Below, piece by piece: positions 1-57,850 of a stretch of 64,000 nucleotides of DNA. The stretch is from Glycine soja (Eukaryota; Streptophyta; Magnoliopsida; Fabales; Fabaceae). Position 1 is the first letter of the stretch. Every line of letters begins with the position of its first letter. The stretch is from the NCBI RefSeq assembly GCF_004193775.1, contig NC_041006.1, positions 29,193,102 to 29,257,101 on the forward strand, written 5' to 3'. The notes beneath the pieces were generated by a model. The model was not told the origin of the DNA, ran no database searches, and was given only the letters and a program-made list of their open reading frames with translations. Both the position numbers and the translations under genes were made by a program.

Positions 1-2865
1 CCAGGCACTCCATCTCTACTCGATCACGGATTAGCTGCGCCGCCATCACGATCTACAAGAAAGAAGAGAAAGGGGTAGACTCTTTCACAAGAATCTAACG
101 ACGCTGCACACAATGCATCTCATAACCACTACATGACGTTAGAAGGAGTATCTTGAGGCTTTTCATCTCTGGTAATCGATTACACAACCTTGGTAATCGA
201 TTACCAGAGGCTAAACTTGAATTACACAACCTCAGGACATGAAATATGCAATAATACACTGTGTAATCGATTACACATGCCTGGTAATCGATTACCAGTG
301 ACCCATTCCTCTGTGTAATCGATTACACAGGCTGGTAATCGATTACCAGAGGCTCCCTAAGTTTCCTGACTTCGTTTTCAAGCCTGGTAATCGATTACAC
401 CCCTTGGTAATCGATTACCAGAGACCATCTTAGCCTCCTGCCCTCAATTTTAAGCCTTGTAATCGATTACCCACCCTTGGTAATCGATTACCAGAGGCCA
501 CCATCCACATATTACACAAAATTCACAGCTGGCCAGCCACCACAAGCCTCCTTGCTTTGTGGTCTTGTTTTCCTTTTATCTGTTGACTGCCAGGAGCTCG
601 CCTGTTTAGGTACATCACAGGTTCTCACTGACCGACTATGCCCGGGTTGGGTCGGGATTGGTCAAGCTTGGTTTTGGGCAATAGCACCCCACCTGACGTC
701 CCCAAGGTCTCCTGACCCCCGCGACATATCTCCAGGTACCACTCTGTGGTCAACAATAAAAGCAGGAAGTTTCACCCTTCAACACTTCCTCATCTCAAGC
801 TTGTAGAATTATGGGGTACCCATCACATGTGGTACTAGGTGGCGGTCGGGCGATGGTGCACAACAAGCTTTCCACATCCACAATGCGCGCATAAACCCAC
901 CATCCCCTGTTGCCCACCTCCAACTGAGCTCACGTACTCCCACGTAGCCCATCTCCTCGTTTCTCTCAACACCGGGTCCCCATCAATCCTCTCAAGCTTC
1001 CACAACATCCAAGCAAAACAACGTTCAAACAGCACAAGCTATCACAGCCAAGCAAAACAGAGCAAAGGCAGAAAACTCTGCTCAACACATCAACCAAAAT
1101 CACAGCTTTTCTCACGTAAAGACCACAGTAACAATTCCTTCGATCCAATTCGTTAACCGTTGGATCGACTCCAAAATTTTACTGGAAGTCTATAGTGTAT
1201 AAGCCTGCATTTTGACCGTTGGGATATACTAGCAAACATCCAGAACTCATTCTGCACTAGACTTTCCACAGCCAACCACACACAAGCATTTTTCTGCACT
1301 TGTGCAAAATTCTGCTGCACAATTTCACAGCAAAAACTCTGCATAAGTGCAGATTTCGAAAATCACCCTTCCTCTCATCCAATCTTGCCCAAATCAAATC
1401 CTACAAGTCCCAAATCATGTATCAAACATGTCTAAACCAAAGCCAAGCTTCAAACCACAGCAACACAAAATCTAGGTGTCCAAAACCCCTCAATTCAATG
1501 GCTTTTCTAGGCTTGAAAGGTGGAATTTAGAATGAGGTAAATTTGGAGCAAACTCTCACCTCACACAAGTCTATAACATCAATCTAAACTTGCTCAAACT
1601 GGATTTACACCTAAATTTCCACCGAATCAAAATTTGACTCCTCAACACCCAATTTTGCCCTAGAAATGGCTCTTGGTTCACTTTGGTCATTTGTTTTTCT
1701 CTCTAGCTCAGCCTAACCTTTCTCACATGTCCTAAATGACATTTCAAGCTATTATTAACTCACTTTAACCTCCATTTACCACAGAATTCAGACTTAGCCT
1801 TCCAACTCTCAAAGTCTCACTCTTTTTTTTCCACTCATAACATCACATTCTCACTTTCTAACCCTAGGTTAGTTCTACCCTTCATCTCTAACAGTTTTCC
1901 ATCAGCAATTTCAGCATATAAACATCACAAACATCATCACAAAAACCCTAAAACAGAATGGGTATGTCTAACACATCCAAACGTGGCAATTTCAACAAGT
2001 TTTCAGCAAATGCCTTCACAAATAATCATCACACAGCAGAAAACTAACAAAACCACCCATCATATCTCCCAAAACCCCATACCCACGAAATTTAAGAGAG
2101 AAAGAAGTCCACCCAAACCTGAAATTTCGAAGTCCCACTCGTAGCCACGCACTTCACGACTCCAAAAATGCTCTCCTTTCACGATTTGGGGCAGAAATGA
2201 TGGCCAAAGGTTGAAGCTTTGTGTGGAGCTTCAATGGAGAATGAGGGAGGAAGAAAAGCAACGTGAGGGAGAGAGAAAGCTGTCTGAAAAAAAATGAGGG
2301 CTGAGTGAAGAGAGAGAAAAGCTTTTTGGTTTTAAATAAAAGGTTTTCCTCTTTTTTTATTATTTTATTCAAGCTCTGCCACATGTCCCTATTTGATTGG
2401 AGCAAAAAGGGCCCACTTTCTCTTTTTGACTGTGACCCATACTCAGTCACAAAAGTGAGAAAAATCTGACCTTTGAAACGCTAAAATCCTGCCTCGGTTT
2501 GCGTGCCATTTCTCTGGTTCCAGTTTCTCGCGTTTCTCTGCGTCCGTCGGGGCCAGTTTTCGAAAGCAAGCAATATATATATCAAAACGCTCAGAATAAA
2601 ACCCCGAGCGTGGTTCAGAGGTTGGTTTCGTCAAATTCCAAGTTGCACGCAAAACGATGATTTTTAACTAATTAATTAAGAATTAACCCATAACCTCCCA
2701 GTTATGGATTTCTCTCCCTTAATTAGTCCAACCCGCGTATCTTGCCCCCACTATTCCTATTTCTACCAAGAACATATAGGCATATACACTGAATAATACT
2801 TATATATAATCATTCAAAATACATCGTTTCCAAAAATTCCGGGTAGAAATTTCCAGGGTGTTACA
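1..2865 (-). mobile_element. LTR-retrotransposon terminal region (minus strand, partial)
   Basis: Read on the minus strand, the block begins at 2865 with TGTAACACCCTGG, a TG-starting LTR end of a kind common in legume gypsy-type elements. It abuts Tat-element gag sequence at 2866, so it appears to be inserted in that older element. It contains no convincing coding frame. It holds a palindrome array near its left end (172-491), many short AC-rich stretches and a direct junction at 2865/2866. The left end lies outside the window, so whether this is a solo LTR or one end of a full element cannot be decided. The boundary is well supported; the family is not. Confidence 0.6.
172..491. repeat. Ten GTAATCGATTAC palindromes in five phased pairs
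   Basis: The exact 12-bp palindrome GTAATCGATTAC starts at 172, 193, 263, 284, 315, 335, 387, 407, 459 and 480. The copies form five pairs with 20 or 21 bp between starts. In several pairs one copy is extended as TGTGTAATCGATTACACA and its partner as TGGTAATCGATTACCA. Similar pairs occur in the solo LTRs at 41976-43485 and 49445-51028. The core TAATCGATTA is two inverted TAAT half-sites two bases apart, a layout bound by paired homeodomains in animals; a plant binder is inference only. Confidence 0.9.
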
Positions 2866-2889
2866 TAGAACATGTAGCACGTTTTCAAA

Positions 2890-5882: not shown

Positions 5883-6800
5883 TTGGAAGAGATTAACCTG
5901 GGGACTAAAGAAAATCAAAAGCCTACATATGTTAGTAAACTTTTAGATGTTGGGCTTGAAGAAAAAATAATTTCTCTGTTACATGAGTTCATGGATTGTT
6001 TTGCATGGGATTATGAAGATATGTCTGGACTCAGTAGAGAATTGGTGGAACACAAATTACCCATTAAAGCAGGCACCAAGAAGATTTTCTCCCACTATCA
6101 TGGAGGCCATCAAAGTAGAGATAGAAAGGCTATTGAAGGCCAATTTCATTCAAACTATAAGGTATGTTAACTGGATTTCTAATATAGTTCCTATAATTAA
6201 AAGAATGATAAAATGTGTGTGTGTGTGTGTAGATTTTAGAGATTTAAATGTAGCAACAACTGAAGATAAATATCCTATGTTAGTTGTTAATATGTTAGTC
6301 AATTCAATAGCAGGCAATGAGATTTTAAGTTTATTAAATGGTTATTCAAGATATAATCAAATATATATTGCTGAAAATGATGTATCTAAAATTGTTTTTT
6401 GATGCCCAGGGGCATTAGGAACATATGAATGGATAGTAATGTCATTTGGTATAAATAATGTTGGTGCAACTTATCAAAGAGCAATGAATCTTATATCTCA
6501 TGATTTGATTGGGAAATTCATTCAAGTCTATATAGATGATGTTGTTGTGTAATCCGAATCGAAAAATAATCATCCAGAACATTTAAGATTATCATTCGAA
6601 AGAATGGATTGAAAATGAATCCATTGAAGTGTGTTTTTGGTGTCTCTGCGGGTGAATTCTTGGGTTTTGTTATCCATCAAAAGGGAATTAAAGTAGATAA
6701 AAATAAGACGAAATCCATTTTGGAGACTTCCCCTCCAAAGAATAAGAAACAACTCCAATCATTATTAGGTAAAGTGAATTTTCTCTGAAGATTCATTTCT
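5883..6800 (+). pseudogene. Tat element reverse transcriptase remnant
   Basis: The RT thumb-proximal and palm motifs are readable: HEFMDCFAWDYEDMSGL (about 5980), DFRDLN (6232-6250), and the catalytic YIDD at 6529-6540. A plus-strand stop TAA at 6550 follows directly after YIDDVVV, and a frameshift near 6110 splits the N-terminal part. A (TG)n run at 6214-6230 has expanded inside the codons before DFRDLN. The enzyme copies element RNA into cDNA; here it cannot be made whole. It is flanked by the RNase H segment at 6850. Confidence 0.85.
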
Positions 6801-8870: not shown

Positions 8871-9627
8871 GTGATTTGAGAAGTAAATACAAACATTTAT
8901 GTTGGTTCGATAAATGGAGAGTAGTTAAAAGCATACAAACCAATGATAACTGAAATAAACATTCCATAACGTAGAAATTTAGGGTGCAATTTGTTCAAAA
9001 AGAGATTACGTGAATTGTAAAACATCAAAAGAAAATAAAAAAGCATTGTTTAAGAATCTACAACCAATGAAGATTTAGCATATCGAATAAAATGACTCTG
9101 TTTCAATTCATTAAAGGCATCGATCCATGTAGATAAGGCATTCATAGACTCCTTTTGAGCAAACTCGAGGTGTCTGCACTTCTTGAGAGGGCCCCTTTAG
9201 CTCTTACACTATGTCTTTAGCAGATGAGTACAAAAAATCTTTATTCTTCTCATTAGTTTCTTTGGTAGATCAAAGTTCTTCAAGCTTAAGGCAAGTGGAA
9301 TGAAGTTCTTCCTGAATAGGTCTAAGTTTCTCCAAAAGATTTTCTTCTTTCTTGACTAATTCTGCCTCAAATCTATCTATTTTCTTAGTTGGCCCTTGTA
9401 TTAGCATAAGATTCTATTTGGCATTCTAAGGACCTTCTCGAGCTTGAATTAAGTTATTTCAATCCTGCTCTATAAGAGACTTAATTTATCTCAACAATAT
9501 CAGCAATGTGTTGACTATATAATTGATGATCTTTGAAGGCATTGTTGAAGATATTAAGGAGATACTCTATTTCCTTTCGAATCTCATCAACCACTAAGTC
9601 GTTAAACTTAAAGACCTCATTTATTTA

Positions 9628-38793: not shown

Positions 38794-41700
38794 ATGGATC
38801 AAAGTTGGATGAAAGCATCACACATTAGTGACGAGTATGGGAATGAGGCTGAACAATTCCTCTAATTTACTGAACTTAATGCACCATGTTTGCATGGGAA
38901 ATTTTTCCATCCATGTGTTAAATATTGAAATGGGAGACACCAATCAATAAATGACATAAGATCACATCTTATATGTCACGGGATCATTCCAAAGTACACA
39001 AAATGGATATGGCATGGGAAATTGCCAGACATATCATCAATCTCTCACACTGAGCCGGTCGATGTAGACATCAGACATCGTATAGAAGACATGATTCACG
39101 ATCTTGGGCAAGACAGATTTCAGCAAGCACATGCACCTTTGTATGAGAAAATAGAAAATGATTCAAAGAAACCTTTGTATTATGGGTGCACAGCTTTCAC
39201 AAGGTTGTCAGCAGTGTTAGCTTTGGTCAACTTGAAGTCACGATTTGGCTGGAGTGACAAAAGCTTCACTAAATTGCTTGTGTTATTGAAAAAATTGCTT
39301 CCTGAAGATAACACGTTGTTGAAGAATCAATGCGAGGCGAAGAAGATTTTATGTCCATTGGGAATGGAGTACCAAAAAATCCATGCATGTCCAAATGATT
39401 GCATATTCTACAGAAATCAGTTTGCAGAAATGTGCAAGTGTCCCACATGTGGTGTATCACGGTACAAGGTCAACGATGACAAATGCAGTGATGCTGCAAC
39501 CACAAACAGCATTCATCCAACAAAGGTGTGTTGGTATCTTCCAATAATTCCAAGGTTTAATTGATTATGTGCTAATGGACATGATGCAAAAAACTTGACA
39601 TGGCATGCAAACGGCAGAAAAAGTGATAGATTGCTCCGACATCTGACTGATAGTCTGCAATAGAAGGCAATCGATCGTTTGTATCCAGATTTTGGGGTTG
39701 GGCCAAGAAATCTAAGGCTTGGTCTTGCTTTGGATGGAATGAATCCTTTTGGTAACTTAAGCACTAACCACAATTCATGGCCTATTTTGCTGATGATTTA
39801 CAACCTCCCTCCTTGGTTGTGCATCACGCGAAAGTACATAATGCTTTGTATGATGATAGTGGGTCCAAGGCAGCCAAGGAATGATATTGATGTTTATCTG
39901 ACTCTGTTGATTGAAGACTTGACAAAATTGTGGGAAGACGGGGTTGATGTGTGGGATGGGAATCTGCAACAGACCTTTAGGTTGCGTGGAATGGTTTTTT
40001 TTGTACCATTAATGACTATCCAACATATGACAATTTAAGTGGTTGTAGTGTCAAAGGCACACATGTCCTATATGTGAGAAAAATCGAGCTTCTTCCAACT
40101 AAAACATGGAAAGAAGACAGTATATACAAGGCACCGAAGATTTCTCAAACATTATCATCCATATCAGCGATTGAAGAAAGCTTTTAAGGGAACTCAGGAA
40201 AATGAAAGTGCGCCGAAACCATTAGATGGCAAAGAAGTTCATGATTGGGTAAAGGAAATCATAACTATCTTTGGGAAGACACAAAAAAACCCATCATCTG
40301 AGACAAACATATGGAAGAAAAGGTAAATATTCTTTGATCTTCCATATTGGTCCAATCTTGATGTTAGACATTGTATAGACGTCATGCATGTGGAGAAAAA
40401 TGTTTGTAATAGTTTAATTGATACCCTTCTTAACATTAAAGGCAAGACAAAGGATGGTTTGAAGTGTCATCAAGACTTGGTTGAGATGGGTATACGAGAG
40501 TAGTTGCATCCAATCTCACAAGGTTCGCGAACGTATCTACCCCCAATATGTCACACAATGTCAACAAAAGAGAAGAGGAGTTTTTATCAATGCCCGCATA
40601 ATCTAAAAGTCCCACAAGGATACTCTTCAAATATCTAGAGCCTTGTATCTGTCAATGATCTTAAATTGGTTGGCTTGAAATCTCATGATTATCATGTATT
40701 AATGCAATAACTATTGCTTGTAGCGATTCATGGTATCTTGCCTGACAAAGTTAAGGTTGCCATAACTTGTTTGTGCTTTCTTTTTAATGTTATCTGTAGC
40801 AAAGTTATTAACCCTAGAAAACTGGATGAATTGGAGAATGAGGCTACCATTGTCCTTTGTCAAATGGAGATGTATTTTCCTCAATCATTTTTTGACATAA
40901 TGTTTCACTTAATTGTTCATCTGGTGAGGGAGATCCGGTTGTGTGGTCTTGTCTTTTTATGGTGGATGTATCCAATTGAGTGGTACATGAAAGTGTTAAA
41001 GGGTTATACCAGTAATCAATATCGACCAGAAGCTTTGATTATCAAAAGGTACGTTGCTGAAGAATGTATTGAGTTTTGCTCCCAAATACATTGAAATTGT
41101 TAAATCTATAAGCTTTCCTGAAACTCATCATGGTCGAACATAAGGGGGCAAGGGTACACGAGGATACAATGTTGTGAAAATGACTCGGCAAGAGGTCTCA
41201 CAAGTGCATCTATATATATTAAACAACACAACAGAGGTGATTCCATACATAGATGTTCATAAAAAAAACTCACAACAACGAACCCAAAAATGAACATGGT
41301 GAGGGTTTTGCAAGAGCACAATAGAACTTTCATTAACTGGTTTAGAGAAACAATATTTGTTGATGATTGTGCTTCCAAAACATTAAGATTGTTAGCTTCT
41401 AGGCCAAATCTCAATGTACCCACTTCGAAAGGATATGATATCAACAATTATTCCTTCTACACCTAGTCACAAGATGATAAAAGTTTGGTGCAGAACAGTG
41501 GGGTGATTGTTGATGCTAATTCCGATCACTTTTGCAGTGCATTAGACAACAACCCGATTCGAGCATCCATGCCGTACTTTGGAGTGATTGAACAAATATG
41601 GAAGCTTGATTACAGTGAATTTAGAGTGCATGTTTTTAAGTTTAAGTGGGTCAATGACAATACCGATGTCCGTCAAGATCAATTGGAATTTACTTTAGTA

Positions 41701-41975
41701 GACCTAAATAAGATGGCTTACATGGACGAACCTTTCATTATGGTAGAACAAGCCAAAAAAGTGTTTTATATCCAAGATCCATGCAATTCAAGATTTTTAG
41801 TGGTTCTACAAGGAAGACCCAGCAGTTTCAATCACCCACATGATGATTCAACACTTGACATTTATGAGACACCGGCTTTTTCCATTAGAATGCCATCTAT
41901 AAATGAGTCACACAATGTTGATGATGTACATGCAAATCGTAATGAACATGATGAAGGATTATGGGAGAACATTCT
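38794..41975 (+). pseudogene. CACTA (En/Spm) TNP2-type transposase, decayed
   Basis: ATG at 38794 begins MDQSWMKASHISDEYGNEAE, the transposase-associated domain (PF13963). Transposase_21 (PF02992) follows in pieces: YGCTAFTRLSAVLALVNLK and CPNDCIFYRNQFAEMCKCP (39180-39440), LALDGMNPFGNLS (39725), DVRHCIDVMHVEKNVCNSL (40363). The DUF4218-like part is at 40870-41090 (PQSFFDIMFHL, EWYMKVLKGY) and the DUF4216-like part at 41485-41900 (NNPIRASMPYFGVIEQIWK). Stops and frameshifts occur throughout, for example near 38860, 38926, 39563 and 40324. A solo LTR interrupts the 3' end at 41976. The protein would cut the CACTA ends; this copy cannot. Confidence 0.9.
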
Positions 41976-43485
41976 TGTAAAATCAAGCTTCATGATGATG
42001 AACCAAGCAATTTTGATGATGCCAAAAGCCCAAGTGATTGATTCAAGACTTCAAGATCAAGCATCAAGAATCTAATCCAAGATTCAAGAGAAGAAATCAA
42101 GAAGCAACAAGTCAAGACTTCATATAGGATAAGTATTAAAAGAATTTTTCAAAAACCAAATAGCACAGTTTTGTTTTACAAAAGAATTTTCTCAAATTTT
42201 CTAAGTTACCAGAGTGATTACTCTCTGGTACTCGATTACCAGTTTGCACTAATCGATTACCAGTGACCAGTTTGGTTTACAAAATGTTTTCAAATGATTT
42301 TTAACGTTCCAAAATTATTTACAAATAGTGTAATCGATTACATTATATTAGTAATCGATTACAAGTGAATCTGAACGTTGAAATTCAAATCCAATTGTGA
42401 AGAGTCACAACTTTTCATAAAATATATTGTGTAATCGACTACACCTTTGTGGTAATCGATTACCAGTGAATAGTTTTGAAGAAAAAAGTTAAGAGTTATA
42501 ACTCTCAACATGGTTTTCTCAAAAGTCATAACTCTTCCAATGGTTTCTTTGACCAGACATGAAGAGTCTATAAAAGCATGACTTTGGCACATGTTCAATA
42601 TGTGTGATATTCTTCCAAACAATCCTTTTTCACAATCTTTCTCTAACCATTGCCCATTATTTTTTTCTTTGCCAAAAAGCTTTCTAAACTTTGTTTCAAA
42701 ACTTTGTTTTTTCTGCAAGTGGAAATTCTGCCGAAAACAAAAGTGTGCTATCTTTTCTTCCTTCTCCCTCTTGCCAAAAGATTCAAAGGACTAACCGCCT
42801 GAGAATTCTTTTGATTCTTCCTCCTCCCTCTTGCCAAAATATTCAAAGGACTAACCGCCTGAGAATTCTTTTGATTCTTCCTCTTTCATTTAAACAAAAG
42901 ATTTCAAAGGACTAACCGCTTGAGATATCTTTTGTTTCCCCTTACAAAGATTCAAGGGACTAACCGCCTAAGAATTCTTTGTCTTAACACATTGGAGGGT
43001 ACATCCTTTGTGGTACAAGTAGAGCGTACATCTACTTGGGTTGTAATACTGAGAACAAGAGAGGGAACATCTCTTGTGGATCAGTTCAAGTGGAGGGTAC
43101 ATCCACTTGGTTGTTCAAAGAGAACAAGGGAGGGTACATCCTTTGTGGATCTTTGCTTGTAAAGGATTTTACAAGGTTATTGGAAATCTCAAGAACCGGT
43201 GGTTGCTTGGGGAATGGATGTAGGCACGGGTTGTTGCCGAACCAGTATAAAAACTTGTGTTTGTTTTTCTCTTCCCTACACTCTTTAATTTCCGCTGTGC
43301 ACTTTTTATTTACGCTGTACTTTTGTCTAAGTTATTATTTTTTGTTAGTTACTTTCTCATAACTTAGTAGTAAAGCCTAATTGAATCTAGTAACATTAAG
43401 AAGGATAAATTTTTAATTAGTCGAGACACGTTCATAATTAATTCAGCCCCCCTTATTAATTATTCCGAGGCCACTTGATCCAACA
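41976..43485 (+). mobile_element. Solo LTR 1 (1.51 kb), inserted in the CACTA transposase
   Basis: It starts TGTAAAATCAAGC and ends GATCCAACA, and is flanked by ATTCT (41971-41975) and ATTAT (43486-43490), a 5-bp target duplication with one mismatch. It is homologous to 49445-51028. It carries three palindrome pairs (42228/42249, 42330/42351, 42431/42452) and about four tandem units of the AAGGACTAACCGCCTGAGAA type (42780-42985). The LTR end resembles those I associate with SIRE/Maximus copia elements, but without internal sequence the family is inference. Confidence 0.85.
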
Positions 43486-46040: not shown

Positions 46041-46486
46041 AATGTAGAAAGCTTTAAATGAGATTCAAACAAGCACTATGGTGAATTTGATGTCTTTCTT
46101 TAAATGTTATAAATAATTTTGTAGCTGTAATGACTATTATTTGAGAATAAAAATACATATTTGTTTATTTCATTTTGGTTTGCACCAAAAGATTTAGACA
46201 ATGCATTGTATTCGCAATGGGTATTTGTGTCGATAGGATATGTGTTTTTTGTGCAACCAAGCTGGCCATTTTTGCAGGTGTTTGTCAAGGTACGAATTTC
46301 GATACTCCTGATGATAGCACAATTTTTGCAGTCTAATATGAGGTGTGGTGGGGGTATATAACATCACTCTATAGCACCTAAAAATCATTATTGCTTGTGG
46401 ATTCATGATGGGCAAGTGGATTCTTCTGAAGTCAAAGTGAGACTTTTACTTGAAAATCATTATTGCTTGTGTTTCGACTTTGTCAT
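46041..46486. other. CACTA 3' flank with short direct repeat
   Basis: AAAATCATTATTGCTTGTG occurs at 46380-46398 and again at 46454-46472, 74 bp apart. No protein is recognised. The CACTA right terminus is expected near here or beyond the Athila insertion, but no clear TTTTCTTGTAGTG-type end was found. Confidence 0.5.
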
Positions 46487-47778
46487 TGATAACTACTAAA
46501 TATGAATTATTTTTTATAATAAAAATATATTGAAAATATCTTTAACAATATTTATTTACCAGTTATTTTTTGCTTAAATATTAGGAATTGATATTTTTCT
46601 TATTTATGGCTTGCAAATATGAAAAGGAGGGATTCAAAGCAAAAAAATCCAAAAAATATAAAAAATATGAATAAGGAATATTTTTGGCATCAGGCCTAAG
46701 TCCACTCCAACAACTATAAAATGGGAGTCAAGCCAAGGAGAAAACACACCACCCTGGAGACTCAGAGCTCTCTAATGAATACATCCTAAGCCCGAGTATC
46801 TCTAGTAGGGGAAATCTTTCTTTTTATGTCCTTTTTCCATCCCTTCTCTTCCATTATTTTCTAAACCCCTTTTCAAGTGTAAGGCCCCTTATGGCTATGA
46901 GAGGCTAAACCCTTAGTCATGGCCTGACAGGCCTAAAAAATCAAAAGATGTATTGTACACTTCATATTTATCAATGCAAACATGTGTTTTCTTTCCTATT
47001 ATCCTTTCTTATTTTAATTTCATATATCATTCATCATTGCATCATCTTTAGGGGTTAGTTGCTCGACGAGGGAAATCCTTAATAGAAATACAAAGAAGGA
47101 CATACATGCATCAGTTTTAAGGATTAGTCGCTCGACAGAGGGTAATTTCTAATAAAACTAAAAGGAAGGGGTATCTTAATAAAACCATTGCTAGACATAG
47201 AGTGATTGCATTATGCTCATGCATCAAAGAAAACATCTAGAATTAGAACTTCATGCATCTAATCTATTGAGTCTTTGCAAAGGCATTTAGGATATAAATA
47301 GGTAAAATAGGCTTGTCTTCAGAAGATATCAGGGGCAAGTATTCTAACAAATGTGGGTAGAAAAAAATTCACCAAATTGATAGAAAAAATCTAAAATAAT
47401 ACATCTTAGGAAAATAAGGTAGGCTAGGTCCCAACATTATCACATTCTGAATTTATCTTTCTTTATCTTCATCTTAATCTTTTATTTTTCTTATATTTTA
47501 CTTTTCTTATCTTATCTTTTTTTATCTTCTATTTTTATCTTTATCTTTACCATCTTTTAATTTAAATCTTTTATCTTTTCTATCTTGTATTTTTATCTTT
47601 AAATCTTTATCTTATCTCCTACCTTTCTTTATCTGTTATTTTAAATTCCTTATCTCTTTCCTGTAAATCGAGTTTGCATCAATCTAAATATAAATAAAGT
47701 CTCTATGGATTCAACACTCGGACTTCCGAGTACATTACTACTTGTGACAAATTTGGTGCACTTGCCAACGAGTTAAAA
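46487..47778 (+). repeat. Athila-like 5' LTR
   Basis: It starts TGATAACTACTAAATATG and ends CAACGAGTTAAAA (the expected final CA is mutated). It contains a pyrimidine-rich TTATCTT microsatellite-like tract at about 47455-47655. It matches 51698-52983 closely over its whole length. Confidence 0.9.
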
Positions 47779-47784
47779 GGTTTT

Positions 47785-47802
47785 TGGCGCCGTTGCCGGG
47801 GA
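47785..47802 (+). other. Primer-binding site (tRNA-Asp type)
   Basis: TGGCGCCGTTGCCGGGGA lies 7 bp after the 5' LTR. Its complement ends in CCA and matches the 3' end I know for plant tRNA-Asp, the primer used by Athila/Calypso elements. Confidence 0.85.
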
Positions 47803-49444: not shown

Positions 49445-51028
49445 TGTGAAAGCAAAGCTTTCCAAGTTTATTTTGATGATGCCAAAGACTCAAGTCAAGA
49501 ATCAAGAGTCAAACAAGTTTCAAGAATCAAGATTCAAGTGAAGATTCAAGAGAAGACTCAAGATATGCAAGAACTTCAATAAAAGCATCAAGATAAGTAT
49601 AAAAAAGATTTTTTTTTAAAAAGAAAAGATTGAATAACACAATTTGTCCAAAAGAATTTTTCAAAGAAAAATCTTTTACCAGAGTTTTTACTCTCTGGTA
49701 ATCGATTACCAAAAGGCAGTAATCGATTACCAGAAGCACAAATAGTTTTATAACTGTTTTACATAGTAGTAATCGATTACCATGAGCATGTAATCGATTA
49801 CCAATGTTTTTAAATGTTGGATTTCAAATTTCAAGAGTCACAACTTGTGACAAAACATTTTCAAACTTGTGTAATCGATTACACAACATTTGTAATCGAT
49901 TACAGTGTTTCTAAACGTTGATTTTCAAATTTAAACATGAAGAGTCACATCTGTTGATGAGTAATCGATTACACTATAATGGTAATCGATTACTAGTGAC
50001 TGGTTTTGAAAAATAAATTGCCAAGAGTCACGATTTTTAAAGTGACTAGTTTTTGAAGAATTTGCCAAGAGTCACAACTTTTAAAGTGACTAGTTTTGAA
50101 GAAATTGTCAAGAGTCACAACTTTTAACATGATTTCTTCAAAAGCCATCAAATGGCTATAAATATGTGACCATGGCACGAATTTAAAAAGATACTGATTA
50201 CTGAATCATTCTCAACATCTTTCTAAGAGTTTTTGTTCAATACTTGCTTTGTCAAGAAAAGTTCATTGGGCAAAAACTTGTGCTTATTCTATTTTCTTCT
50301 TCTTTTTTTCCTTCTCCCTCTTGCCAAAAGAATTCAAAGAACTAACCATCTGAGAATTCTTTGCCCAAACACTGAATTCAAAGAACTAACCGTCTGAGAA
50401 TTCTGTGTAAGAAGCGGGTAGCTTCTTGGTTGTAATAGTGAACACAAGGGAGGGTACATCTACTTGGTTGTTAAAAGAGAACAAGGAAGGGTGCATCCTT
50501 TGTGGCTCTTTACTTGTAAAGGTTTTTACAAGGTTATTAGAAATCTCAAGAACCGTGAGTTGCTTGGGGACTGGATGTAGGCACGGGTCATTACCGAACC
50601 TGTATAAATCTTGTGTTTGCTTTCTTCTTTCCTATGCTCTTTACTTTTCCGTTGTGTACTTTTTATTTCCGCTTTACTTTTGTCTAAGTTGTTATTTTTG
50701 TTCTTTACTTTCTCATAACTTAGTAGTAAAGCCTAATTGTATCTAGTAACATTAAAAAACTTCGTACCCCATTGCCCAGAGGCTCTTCGCTATGCGAAGG
50801 TATGGGGGAGGGATATTGTACGCAGTCTTACCCTTGCATATGCAAAGAGGCTGTTTCCGGATTCGAACCCATGACCAACAAGTCACCAAGGCACAACTTT
50901 ACCGCTGCACCAGGGCTCGCCCTCGTATCTAGTAACATTAAGAAGGATAAAATTTTAATTAGTCAAGACACGTTCATAATTAATTCAACCCCCCATTCTT
51001 AATTATTCCGAGGCGACTTGTTCCAACA
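49445..51028 (+). mobile_element. Solo LTR 2 (1.58 kb), inserted in the Athila-like element
   Basis: It starts TGTGAAAGCAAAGC and ends TTCCAACA, flanked by GTCTT (49440-49444) and GTCAT (51029-51033), a 5-bp duplication with one mismatch. It is homologous to the solo LTR at 41976-43485. It contains four palindrome pairs (49698/49719, 49769/49790, 49871/49892, 49961/49982), each exactly 21 bp apart. An Au SINE interrupts it at 50756. Confidence 0.88.
50756..50921 (-). mobile_element. Au-type tRNA-derived SINE
   Basis: On the minus strand the element starts GGCGAGCCCTGGTGCAGCGG and contains the pol III B box GGTTCGAATCC (complement of 50859-50869), then GCGTACAATATCCCTCCCCC, ending in a GTACGAAG plus T run. 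This is the Au SINE layout. A 17-bp target duplication GTATCTAGTAACATTAA flanks it (50739-50755 and 50925-50941). The homologous LTR at 41976-43485 shows the empty site at about 43385-43401. Confidence 0.93.
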
Positions 51029-51694: not shown

Positions 51695-51697
51695 TTT

Positions 51698-52983
51698 TGA
51701 TAACTGCTAAATATGAGTTATTTTTTATAATAAAAATATATTGAAAACATATTTAAATATATTTATTTAGCAGTTATTTTTTGCTTAAATATTAGGAATT
51801 GATATTTTTTGTATTTATGGCTTGCAGATATGAAAAGGAGGGATTAAAAGTGAAAAAGATCTAGAAAATATCAAAAATATGAATAAGGAAGATTTTTGGC
51901 ATCAGGCCTAAGTCCACTCCAACAACTATAAAAAGGGAGTCAAGCCAAGGAGAAAATACACCCCCCTGGAGACTTAGAGCTCTCTAATGAATAAAGCCTG
52001 AGTATCTCTAGTAGGGGAAATCTTTCTTTTTATGTCCTTTTTCCATCCCTTCTCTTCCATCAGTTTCTAAACCCCTTTTCAAGTGTAAGGTCCCTTATGG
52101 TTATAAGAGGCTAAACCCTTAGTTAGAGCCTGACAAACCTAAAAAGTCAAAAGATGTATTGTACACTTCATATTTATCAATGCAAACAAATGTTTTCTTT
52201 CCTATTATCTTTTCTTATTTTAATTTGATGTATCATTCATCCTTGCATCATATTTAGGGGTTAGGTGCTCGACAAAGGATAATCCTTAATAGGAATACAA
52301 GGAAGGTCTTACATGCATCATTTTTAGGGATTTGTCGCTCAACATAAGGTAATTTCTAATAGAACTAAAAGGAAGATGTATCTTAATAAAACCATTGCTA
52401 GACATAGAGTGATTGCATTGTGCCTATGCATCAAAGCAAACATCTAGAATTAGAACTTCATGCATTTTATCCATTGAGTCTTTGCAAAGGCATTTGGGAG
52501 ATAGATAGGTAAAATATACTTGTCATTGTGAGACATCGGGGGCAAGTATTCTAACAAATGTGGGTAGAAAAATTCACCAAATTGATAGAGAAAAATCTAA
52601 AATAATACATCTTAGACAAATAAGACAGGCTAGGTCCCAACATTATCACATTCTGAATTTATCTTTCTTTATCTTCATCTTAATCTTTTATTTTTCTTAT
52701 CTTTTACTTTTTTTCATCTTATCTTTTTTATCTTCTATTTTTATCTTTATCTTTATCATCTTTTAATTTAAATCTTTTATCTTTTCTATCTTGTATTTTT
52801 ATCTTTAAATCTTTATCTTATCTCCTACCTTTCTTTATCTGTTATCTTAAATTCCTTATCTCTTGCTTGTAATTGGGTTTGCATCAATCTAAGTACAAAC
52901 AAAGTCCCTGTGGATTTGGCACTCGTACTTTTGAGTACTTTACTACTTGTGACAAATTTGGTGCGCTTGCCAACGAGTTAACA
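51698..52983 (+). repeat. Athila-like 3' LTR
   Basis: It starts TGATAACTGCTAAATATG and ends CAACGAGTTAACA. It is the partner of 46487-47778, with a similar pyrimidine-rich tract at about 52665-52880. Divergence between the two LTRs is visible but modest. Confidence 0.9.
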
Positions 52984-55989: not shown

Positions 55990-57020
55990 AAACCCGTGAA
56001 AGCATGAAGACATTGAAGTTCTTTGAAATGTAAATGAGGGTCATTGTCAGCTTTTGAAAGCATGCAATGACTGAAGACATTGTCGCCTTTTAAAAGCATG
56101 CAATGACTGAAGACATTATCGTCTTCGAAATGTAAATAAAGGCATTGTCGCCTTTTGAAAGCATGCAATGACTGAAGACATTGTCGTCTTTGAAATTCAA
56201 ATGAAGACATTGTCGCCTTTTAAAAGCATGCAATGACTAAAGACATTGTCGCCTTTTAAAAGCATGCAATGACTGAAGACATTGTCGTCTTTGAAATGTA
56301 AATAAGGGCATTGTCGCCTTTTGAAAGCATGCAATGACTGAAGACATTGTCGCCTTTTAAAAGCCTTCAATGACTGAAGACATTGTCGTCTTCGAAATGT
56401 AAATGAAGACATTTTCACCTTTTGAAAGCATGCAATGACTGAAGACATTGTCGTCTTTGAAATATAAATGAAGACATTGTCGCCTTTTGAAAGCATGCAA
56501 TGACTAAAGACATTGTCATCTTCAAAATTTAAATGAGGGTCATTGTCGTCTTTTGAATGCATGCAATGACTGAAGACATTTTTGTCTTTGAAATGTAAAT
56601 GAGGGTCATTGTTGCCTTTTGAAAGCATGCAATGACTGAAGACATTGTCATCTTCGAAATGTAAATGAGGGTCATTGTCAGCTTTTGAAAGCATGCAATG
56701 ACTGAAGACATTGTCGCCTTTTAAAAGCATGCATTGACTGAAGACATTGTCTTATTCGAAATGTAAATGAAGACATTGTCACCGTTTGAAAGCATGCAAT
56801 GACTAAAGACATTGTCGTCTTTGAAATGTAAATGAAGACATTGTCGCCTTTTGAAAGCATACAATGACCGAAGACATTGTCGTCTTTGAAATGTAAATGA
56901 TGACATTGTCTCCTTTTGAAATCATGCAATGACTGAAGACATTGTTGTCTTCGAAATGCAAATGAAGACATTATCACCTTTTGAAAGCATGCAATGACTA
57001 AAGACATTGTCGTCTTTGAA
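55990..57020 (-). repeat. Tandem array A: 36-bp and 29-bp modules
   Basis: A 36-bp module (GACATTGTCGCCTTTTGAAA followed by GCATGCAATGACTGAA on the plus strand) repeats, often followed by a 29-bp module (GACATTGTCGTCTTTGAAAT then GTAAATGAA). GCATGC positions show spacings of 36 and 65 bp (for example 56061, 56097, 56162, 56227, 56263, 56328). The long open frames through it are products of the repeat, not genes. It lies in the 3' untranslated part of the element. Confidence 0.92.
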
Positions 57021-57735
57021 AAGGGGCAGATGATCATAATTTGTCTCTGCGTGCCATCAGACTTGCATGTCTCTGGATAGCAAAGAGGGTGCAGATGACC
57101 ATAATTTGTCTCTGCATGCCATCAGACTTGATTGTCTCTAGATAGCAAAAGTGTGCGGATGACCATAATTTGTCTTCGCGTGCCATCGGACTTGCTTGTC
57201 TCTGGATAGCAAAGAGGGTGCGAATGACCATAATTTGTCTCCGCGTGCCATCCGACTTGATTGTCTCTGGATAGCAAAGGTGTGTGGATGACCATAATTT
57301 GTCTTCGCGTGCCATCAGACTCAATTTTCTCTAGATGGTGAAAAGCGTGCGGATGACCATAATTTGTCTCTGCGTGCCATCGGACTCGATTGTCTCTGAA
57401 TGGCGAAGGTGTGCGGATGATCATAATTTGTCTCCGTGTGCCATCGGACTCGATTGTCTCTGGATGGCAAAAAGGGTGCGGATGACCATAATTTGTCTCC
57501 GCATGCCATCAGACTCGATTGTCTCTGGATGGCAAAAGTGTGCGGATGACCATAATTTGTCTCCATGTGCCATCGAACTCGCTTGTCTCTAGATAGCAAA
57601 GAAGGTGTGGATGACCATAATTTTTCTCTGTGTGTAATCGGACTTGATTGTCTCTGGATAGCAAAGGTGTGCAGATGACCATAATTTGTCTCCATGTGCC
57701 ATCAGACTCGATTGTCTCTAGATGGCGAAAGAGAC
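57021..57735 (-). repeat. Tandem array B: ~64-65-bp unit, about 11 copies
   Basis: The unit contains GATGACCATAATTTGTCTC, then GTGCCATCGGACT and TTGTCTCTGGATGGCAAA. ATAATTTG occurs at 57036, 57101, 57165, 57230, 57294 and 57359 and onward, giving alternating 65 and 64 bp spacings. It directly follows array A with no unrelated spacer. Frames in it are repeat artefacts. Confidence 0.92.
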
Positions 57736-57769
57736 TGTAATAGTCTCGGTCGAAAAGTAAATGACAGAG

Positions 57770-57850
57770 GACTTTGAGTCCTATGAAAGCATAAAAGCAA
57801 GGACTTTGAGTCCTATGAAGGCGAGGACTTTGAGTCCTATAAAGGCGAGC
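57770..57850 (-). repeat. Short tandem repeat, GAGGACTTTGAGTCCTAT units
   Basis: Three units of AGGACTTTGAGTCCTATGAA, 27-34 bp apart, follow array B. Each contains the near-palindrome AGGACTTTGAGTCCT. Confidence 0.85.

Follow-up and report, generated by a model that had tools for sequence, protein, structure and literature searches.

Why should a 12-bp palindrome, GTAATCGATTAC, occur ten times in a single short array at this locus, and why should its copies come in close pairs? An earlier note on this DNA had listed ten exact copies in five pairs with 20 or 21 bp between starts, and the same positions were recovered here (starts 172, 193, 263, 284, 315, 335, 387, 407, 459 and 480; array A in Table 1). 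Its further description of the spacing as a constant 21 bp has to be relaxed to 20 or 21 bp, both of which occur in the array.

Three arrays of paired palindromes

In the window, that is, the whole 64-kb stretch of DNA that was analyzed, there are 24 matches to the palindrome with no more than one mismatch (21 exact and 3 with one mismatch), compared with a mean of 0.14 and a maximum of 1 in 100 dinucleotide-preserving shuffles of the window. The 14 copies beyond array A (11 exact, and 3 with one mismatch at 42228, 42249 and 42431) form two further arrays, B and C, in which 7 of 7 pairs are spaced by 21 bp. Differences between the flanks of the two members of a pair, also described in the earlier note, are clear in array A, where all five second members have CAG after them and the first members ACA, ACA, ACA, ACC and CCA, respectively; the contrast is weaker in arrays B and C. 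The array A pairs at 315, 387 and 459 follow a 72-bp period and, within the array, the segments 311-427 and 384-500 are 82% identical, so that these three pairs are not independent of one another.

Table 1. Palindrome arrays and their carrier long terminal repeats (LTRs) in the window.
Feature	Position	Strand	Description
Array A	172..491	.	ten exact GTAATCGATTAC in five pairs (21, 21, 20, 20, 21 bp); between-pair gaps 70, 31, 52, 52
Array B	42228..42463	.	six palindromes (3 exact, 3 one-mismatch) in three pairs, all 21 bp; gaps 81, 80
Array C	49698..49993	.	eight exact palindromes in four pairs, all 21 bp; gaps 50, 81, 69
Ty3/gypsy LTR, incomplete, running off the left window edge	1..2866	-	begins TGTAACACCC at 2866; assigned from the L124 copy
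Carrier of array B, Sirevirus-like LTR	41976..43485	+	without internal region (probable solo LTR); flanks ATTCT/ATTAT, 4/5 alike
Carrier of array C, Sirevirus-like LTR	49445..51028	+	without internal region (probable solo LTR); flanks GTCTT/GTCAT, 4/5 alike

The arrays lie in LTRs of two kinds

Positions 3-2872 of the window (minus strand) are 95.07% identical over 2900 bp to another locus of the same genome, L124:2503-5390, where an LTR starts near 2510 (TGTAACATCC), a primer site (TGGTATCAGAGC) is found at 6361, downstream of the LTR, and the frame that opens at 6647 contains Retrotrans_gag, zf-CCHC, RVP_2, RVT_1, RT_RNaseH and Integrase_H2C2 domains (gag-protease-RT-RNase H-integrase). In Ty3/gypsy elements, the integrase comes after RNase H. 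Because this copy combines a primer site with a gag-pol frame in gypsy order, array A is assigned by sequence similarity to the inside of a Ty3/gypsy LTR, approximately 2.4 kb from the LTR start, in agreement with the earlier placement of the array in an LTR. The gaps of the L124 array (21, 52, 20, 52, 20, 31, 21, 70 and 21) are those of array A in reverse, and the repetition of identical gaps in a second array that starts 8,620 bp farther on fits the other LTR of one element.

The carriers of arrays B and C can be aligned with each other, and each has a TATA-like box (CTATAAAAG at 42569 in the carrier of B, CTATAAATA at 50157 in that of C) as well as a C-run near the 3' end; no internal region was seen for either. 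Arrays B and C begin 252 and 253 bp into their LTRs and end 106 and 164 bp upstream of the TATA-like box, respectively. The TATA-like box, the C-run and the place of the array agree with the Sirevirus LTR described in PMC2829016 and suggest that both carriers are putative Sirevirus-like (Ty1/copia) LTRs. That the arrays serve the elements in replication, integration or recombination, for which the suggestion in the earlier note is the one point to cite, is scarcely to be expected, since the arrays lie within the LTRs, far from the LTR ends and the primer site.

Abundance and pair spacing in the genome and in public sequences

Over the 1,013,641,977 bases counted (1119 contigs), the whole genome holds 100,301 copies of GTAATCGATTAC, as opposed to 109 of the reversed control. 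Exact copies form 27,242 pairs at 21 bp and 8,900 pairs at 20 bp, compared with 0 control pairs at both distances; the pair spacing, counted at these two distances, is thus found genome-wide. Arrays are present in 5 of 19 10-kb stretches picked without regard to content (L127, L129, L133, L136 and L141). L129 matches the gypsy LTR, L136 and L141, as well as the further stretch L120, match the LTRs of arrays B and C, L127 matches only partly, and L133 is without a match to the window. In a set of 21 genome arrays (12 among the genome matches listed, 7 from extracted stretches, and arrays B and C), with the family of array A represented by its copies on contig C1 in place of array A itself, the short gaps measure 20 bp (n=10), 21 bp (n=41) and 22 bp (n=1). 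In L136 (2023-9547), a B-type LTR carries an array at 9120-9344, and an open frame that encodes the NB-ARC and LRR domains of a disease-resistance protein is situated approximately 2.3 kb from this LTR.

A sample of 179 palindrome-bearing proteins from public collections, consisting of translated fragments, provides a further measure of spacing. These fragments preserve distances to the base because GTAATCGATTAC, translated in the two frames that are open, gives NRL or VIDY. Among 333 adjacent gaps of up to 24 bp, 293 are of 21 bp and 38 of 20 bp, with one each of 17 and 24 bp, a distribution that is biased toward such matches by search profiles that themselves contained 20-21 bp pairs, a bias that does not account for the long gaps. 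Gaps of 18, 19, 22 and 23 bp, although readable in the frames of the fragments, were not seen among these 333. Two predicted proteins of Lupinus albus, P0023 and P0118, contain runs of the translated palindrome at 21 bp (NRLHTAG and NRLHSAG) and are probably annotated repeat DNA.

Gaps between pairs lie near whole helical turns

The near-whole-turn spacing that the earlier note had seen within pairs extends to the gaps between pairs, with best periods of 10.20 bp in the window, 10.15 bp in the genome arrays and 10.21 bp in the public fragments. For arrays A, B and C together, the score of 0.73 is matched by 20 of 20,000 random-gap sets, and a set of 18 distances from the window peaks at a period of 10.14. 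The 47 gaps of 26-130 bp in the 21 genome arrays give a score of 0.74, equaled by 0 of 5,000 random sets; the 18 distinct gap lengths alone still give a period of 10.20 with a score of 0.59 (7 of 5,000 random sets), and the same set includes off-turn gaps of 56, 83 and 85 bp. Pair-to-pair distances among the matches listed have periods of 10.20 below 130 bp (n=19; 1 of 5,000 random sets), 10.25 below 300 bp (n=24; 0 of 5,000) and 10.30 when only the 13 distinct distances are used (6 of 5,000), from data that overlap with the 21-array set, as the first part of contig C1 contributed to both. The period tests on the public fragments and on the 21 arrays cover gaps of up to 130 bp, above which lie gaps of 205 and 197 bp within listed arrays of the latter, and the pair-to-pair test covers distances below 300 bp. 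The best periods vary between sets and the gaps are not independent, and the phasing statistics are weakened throughout by the shared ancestry of the arrays.

The public fragments contain 282 gaps of 26-130 bp, and counting each length once per sequence cluster leaves 125 (bootstrap range of the period, 10.18-10.24), of which 93 lie within 1.5 bp of a whole turn, compared with 36.8 expected, and 3 fall on the opposite face, where 36.8 were likewise expected. With one gap taken per cluster, the score is matched by 0 of 5,000 frame-matched random sets at 83, 60 or 32 clusters, by 4 of 5,000 under looser clustering into 12, and by 1160 of 5,000 at the loosest setting, with 3 clusters.

All of these periods are nearer to 10.2 than to 10.5 bp. 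The helical repeat of DNA on nucleosomes is 10.2 bp, and a nucleosome-linked reading is thus conceivable, in which the palindromes set a rotational position, or bend the DNA in phase, without the aid of a specific dimer. Such a signal would not, however, need one fixed 12-bp palindrome kept at 98% mean identity, and we regard it as quite improbable.

Palindromes are conserved while linkers diverge

The comparison of arrays B and C illustrates which positions have been kept. Identity is 69/72 in the palindromes and 15/27 in the 9-bp linkers, 112/156 at the other array positions and 738/1048 in the remaining LTR, whereas the length of the 9-bp linker is unchanged in the three matched pairs. Window-wide, the mean likeness of ten 9-bp linkers is 32%, as opposed to that of the palindromes given above, and 24 of the 28 CpGs in the three arrays lie inside palindromes. 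Relative to array B, array C has one gap that is 11 bp shorter and one extra pair 71 bp after its neighbor, both changes being near whole turns. Tandem duplication as the sole cause of the pairs was rejected because linkers of constant length have diverged to this extent, and a single recent event of this kind, which the earlier note had allowed might explain the pairing away, is likewise contradicted; for the arrays as such, tandem duplication remains a rival.

That rival, in its broader form, is common descent and copying only, whereby the spacing was set in one or a few ancestral arrays, was multiplied as elements transposed and as units of approximately 72 bp were duplicated, and is now functionless. 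The 72-bp tandem units of array A are consistent with this account, and a unit of this length is found again in public fragments (e.g. P0002). Furthermore, most gap sequences fall in one cluster at loose thresholds, and two gap segments of array A weakly resemble segments of B or C (each matched by 2 of 300 shuffles, in a large number of comparisons). Copying alone does not, however, predict that linkers and gaps would diverge while the palindromes and near-whole-turn lengths were kept, and the periodicity in distinct gap lengths alone and the presence of carriers apparently from two superfamilies also argue against it. On balance, copying without function appears unlikely, if by no means negligible as an account of the arrays.

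Relation to known palindromic repeats

Palindromes are known from the LTRs of Sireviruses, where they have been described as repeated motif (RM) boxes (Bousios et al., 2010; PMC2829016). In the portions of that study available here, RMs are called Sirevirus-specific on the basis of a comparison of Ty1/copia elements only, and 13 elements are listed with RMs, SIRE1-1 not being among them. The likeness to the present arrays is considerable: in RM boxes, too, a palindrome is repeated many times in the upper LTR, upstream of the TATA box, and although their core is usually CGG-CCG, tobacco Tnd-1, the exception named in the same source, has ACAATCGATTGT, which shares the core AATCGATT with GTAATCGATTAC and differs in the outer bases (PMC2829016). 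RMs are defined there by at least 8 palindromes with dyad symmetry in LTR and linker together, compared, in the window, where such a linker is absent, with 10 in array A, 8 exact copies in array C and 6 in array B (one LTR). RMs begin 200-400 bp inside the LTR and precede the TATA box, as do arrays B and C but not array A, the carrier of which is Ty3/gypsy and not a Sirevirus (Ty1/copia). RM clusters are also reported to form CpG islands (PMC2829016); judged by ratio alone, CpG observed/expected is 1.3 in array B, 1.18 in array C and 0.73 in array A, and falls to 0.51, 0.20 and 0.09, respectively, when the palindromes are removed.

Neither pairs at 20-21 bp nor whole-turn spacing is mentioned for RM boxes in the available portions of PMC2829016. 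In the literature collection searched, this was the only paper on plant LTRs, by title, to be returned for AATCGATT together with retrotransposons; the titles returned for GTAATCGATTAC were bacterial only, none on plant LTRs was returned for TAATCGATTA, and none concerned helical phasing in plant LTRs. While palindromic RMs of Sirevirus LTRs are thus already known, the pair as a unit, the whole-turn spacing of the arrays, the scale of 100,301 copies and the presence in a Ty3/gypsy LTR were not found in that collection.

In maize Sireviruses, small RNAs have been described as being in excess at the clusters of palindromes (PMC10760457, citing Bousios 2016, as far as the available part of that text goes), and it has been proposed that transcripts of such LTR palindromes fold and feed small-RNA silencing. 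Array A RNA would fold at -156.2 kcal/mol, compared with -89.1 kcal/mol in shuffles (z -12.6), as expected for an RNA hairpin source. A low folding energy is, however, expected of any set of palindromes, and hairpins have no need of gaps that stay close to multiples of 10.2 bp for several turns, which makes this a rather improbable explanation of the arrays. No structured RNA family was found at Rfam's gathering threshold.

Outside plants, GTAATCGATTAC is present in at least 119 prokaryotic stretches (L001-L119), many from enterobacteria by title. As in the present arrays, the bacterial palindrome occurs twice at short distance, but without an LTR, and of 121 short gaps among the matches listed, 77 measure 31 or 32 bp; the two are probably unrelated, and a bacterial origin of the plant arrays was set aside. 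In one bacterial stretch (L037), an open frame begins within the span of the pair (6567-6609), and the bacterial pair looks like a double operator as far as its sequence goes. Viral contigs gave 0 matches to a palindrome pair with linkers of 7-11 bp.

A putative cis-regulatory module

We consider it somewhat more probable than the contrary that the arrays are cis-regulatory modules of LTRs, on which a dimeric host factor would be bound along one face of the DNA. Each 12-bp palindrome would be the site for a symmetric, dimeric host DNA-binding protein, the working unit would be two sites 20-21 bp apart with further units near whole helical turns away, and dimers phased in this manner would lie on one face, able to touch each other or one common surface. 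If dimers bind along one face, near-whole-turn spacing is expected even as the linkers drift. What would be expected of a transcription-factor array, namely that sites are conserved and their spacing helically constrained while linkers vary freely, was indeed found, with independence limited by shared descent. Binding by a protein, its cooperativity, an effect on transcription and the nature of the binder are what we infer beyond the sequence pattern itself. In the Sirevirus-like LTRs, the position of the array relative to the LTR start and the TATA-like box would suit an enhancer or transcription switch, and the same kind of array could have arisen in a Ty3/gypsy LTR through convergence or transfer. 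The location of the gypsy array deep within its LTR, away from the Sirevirus place, counts against this explanation.

As to what the binder may be, the nearest plant site encountered in the literature, that of HD-Zip III proteins, GTAAT[G/C]ATTAC (PMC3911943, as given in the available part of that source), has the half-sites GTAAT and ATTAC in common with GTAATCGATTAC. It is 11 bp long with one central base, however, whereas GTAATCGATTAC has 12 bp with a central CG and so does not fit the 11-bp consensus; a homeodomain-type factor, suggested in the earlier note, is a candidate at most. More tentatively still, and with considerable doubt, legume LTRs of both the Ty1/copia-like and the Ty3/gypsy type may have recruited a single host DNA-binding system that reads DNA at a helical repeat of approximately 10.2 bp, as on a nucleosome.

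If this is true, the approximately 100,000 phased sites would place this network among the largest of its kind in a plant genome and would give two retrotransposon superfamilies a common switch, acting for or against them; copies in such number could also draw off or redirect a host factor. The role of the palindromic boxes of plant LTRs was left open in the available portions of PMC2829016, and the near-whole-turn spacing points to one-face binding. A motif common to two superfamilies would, moreover, offer a handle on the control that plants exert over many LTRs.

Surroundings of the arrays

Several other repeats are found near the arrays. The LTR of array C contains an insert of approximately 169 bp, flanked on either side by a copy of GTATCTAGTAACATTAA (50739-50755 and 50925-50941), that is absent from the LTR of array B and looks like a SINE; ARAGORN detected no tRNA genes. 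Direct repeats approximately 5.2 kb apart (46486-47776 and 51697-52981), with pieces 86-97% alike and TGGCGCCGTTGCCGGGGA at 47785, probably represent a pair of LTRs from another retrotransposon that enclose the LTR of array C. The LTR of array B follows open frames (38929-42075) that contain DUF4216 and a weak Transpos_assoc match (below the Pfam cut-off), as in CACTA-like transposons. Finally, positions 56020-57841 are occupied by a tandem repeat with units of approximately 65, 129 and 36 bp (GTCTTCGAAATG, GCATGCAATGACTGAAGACATTG).
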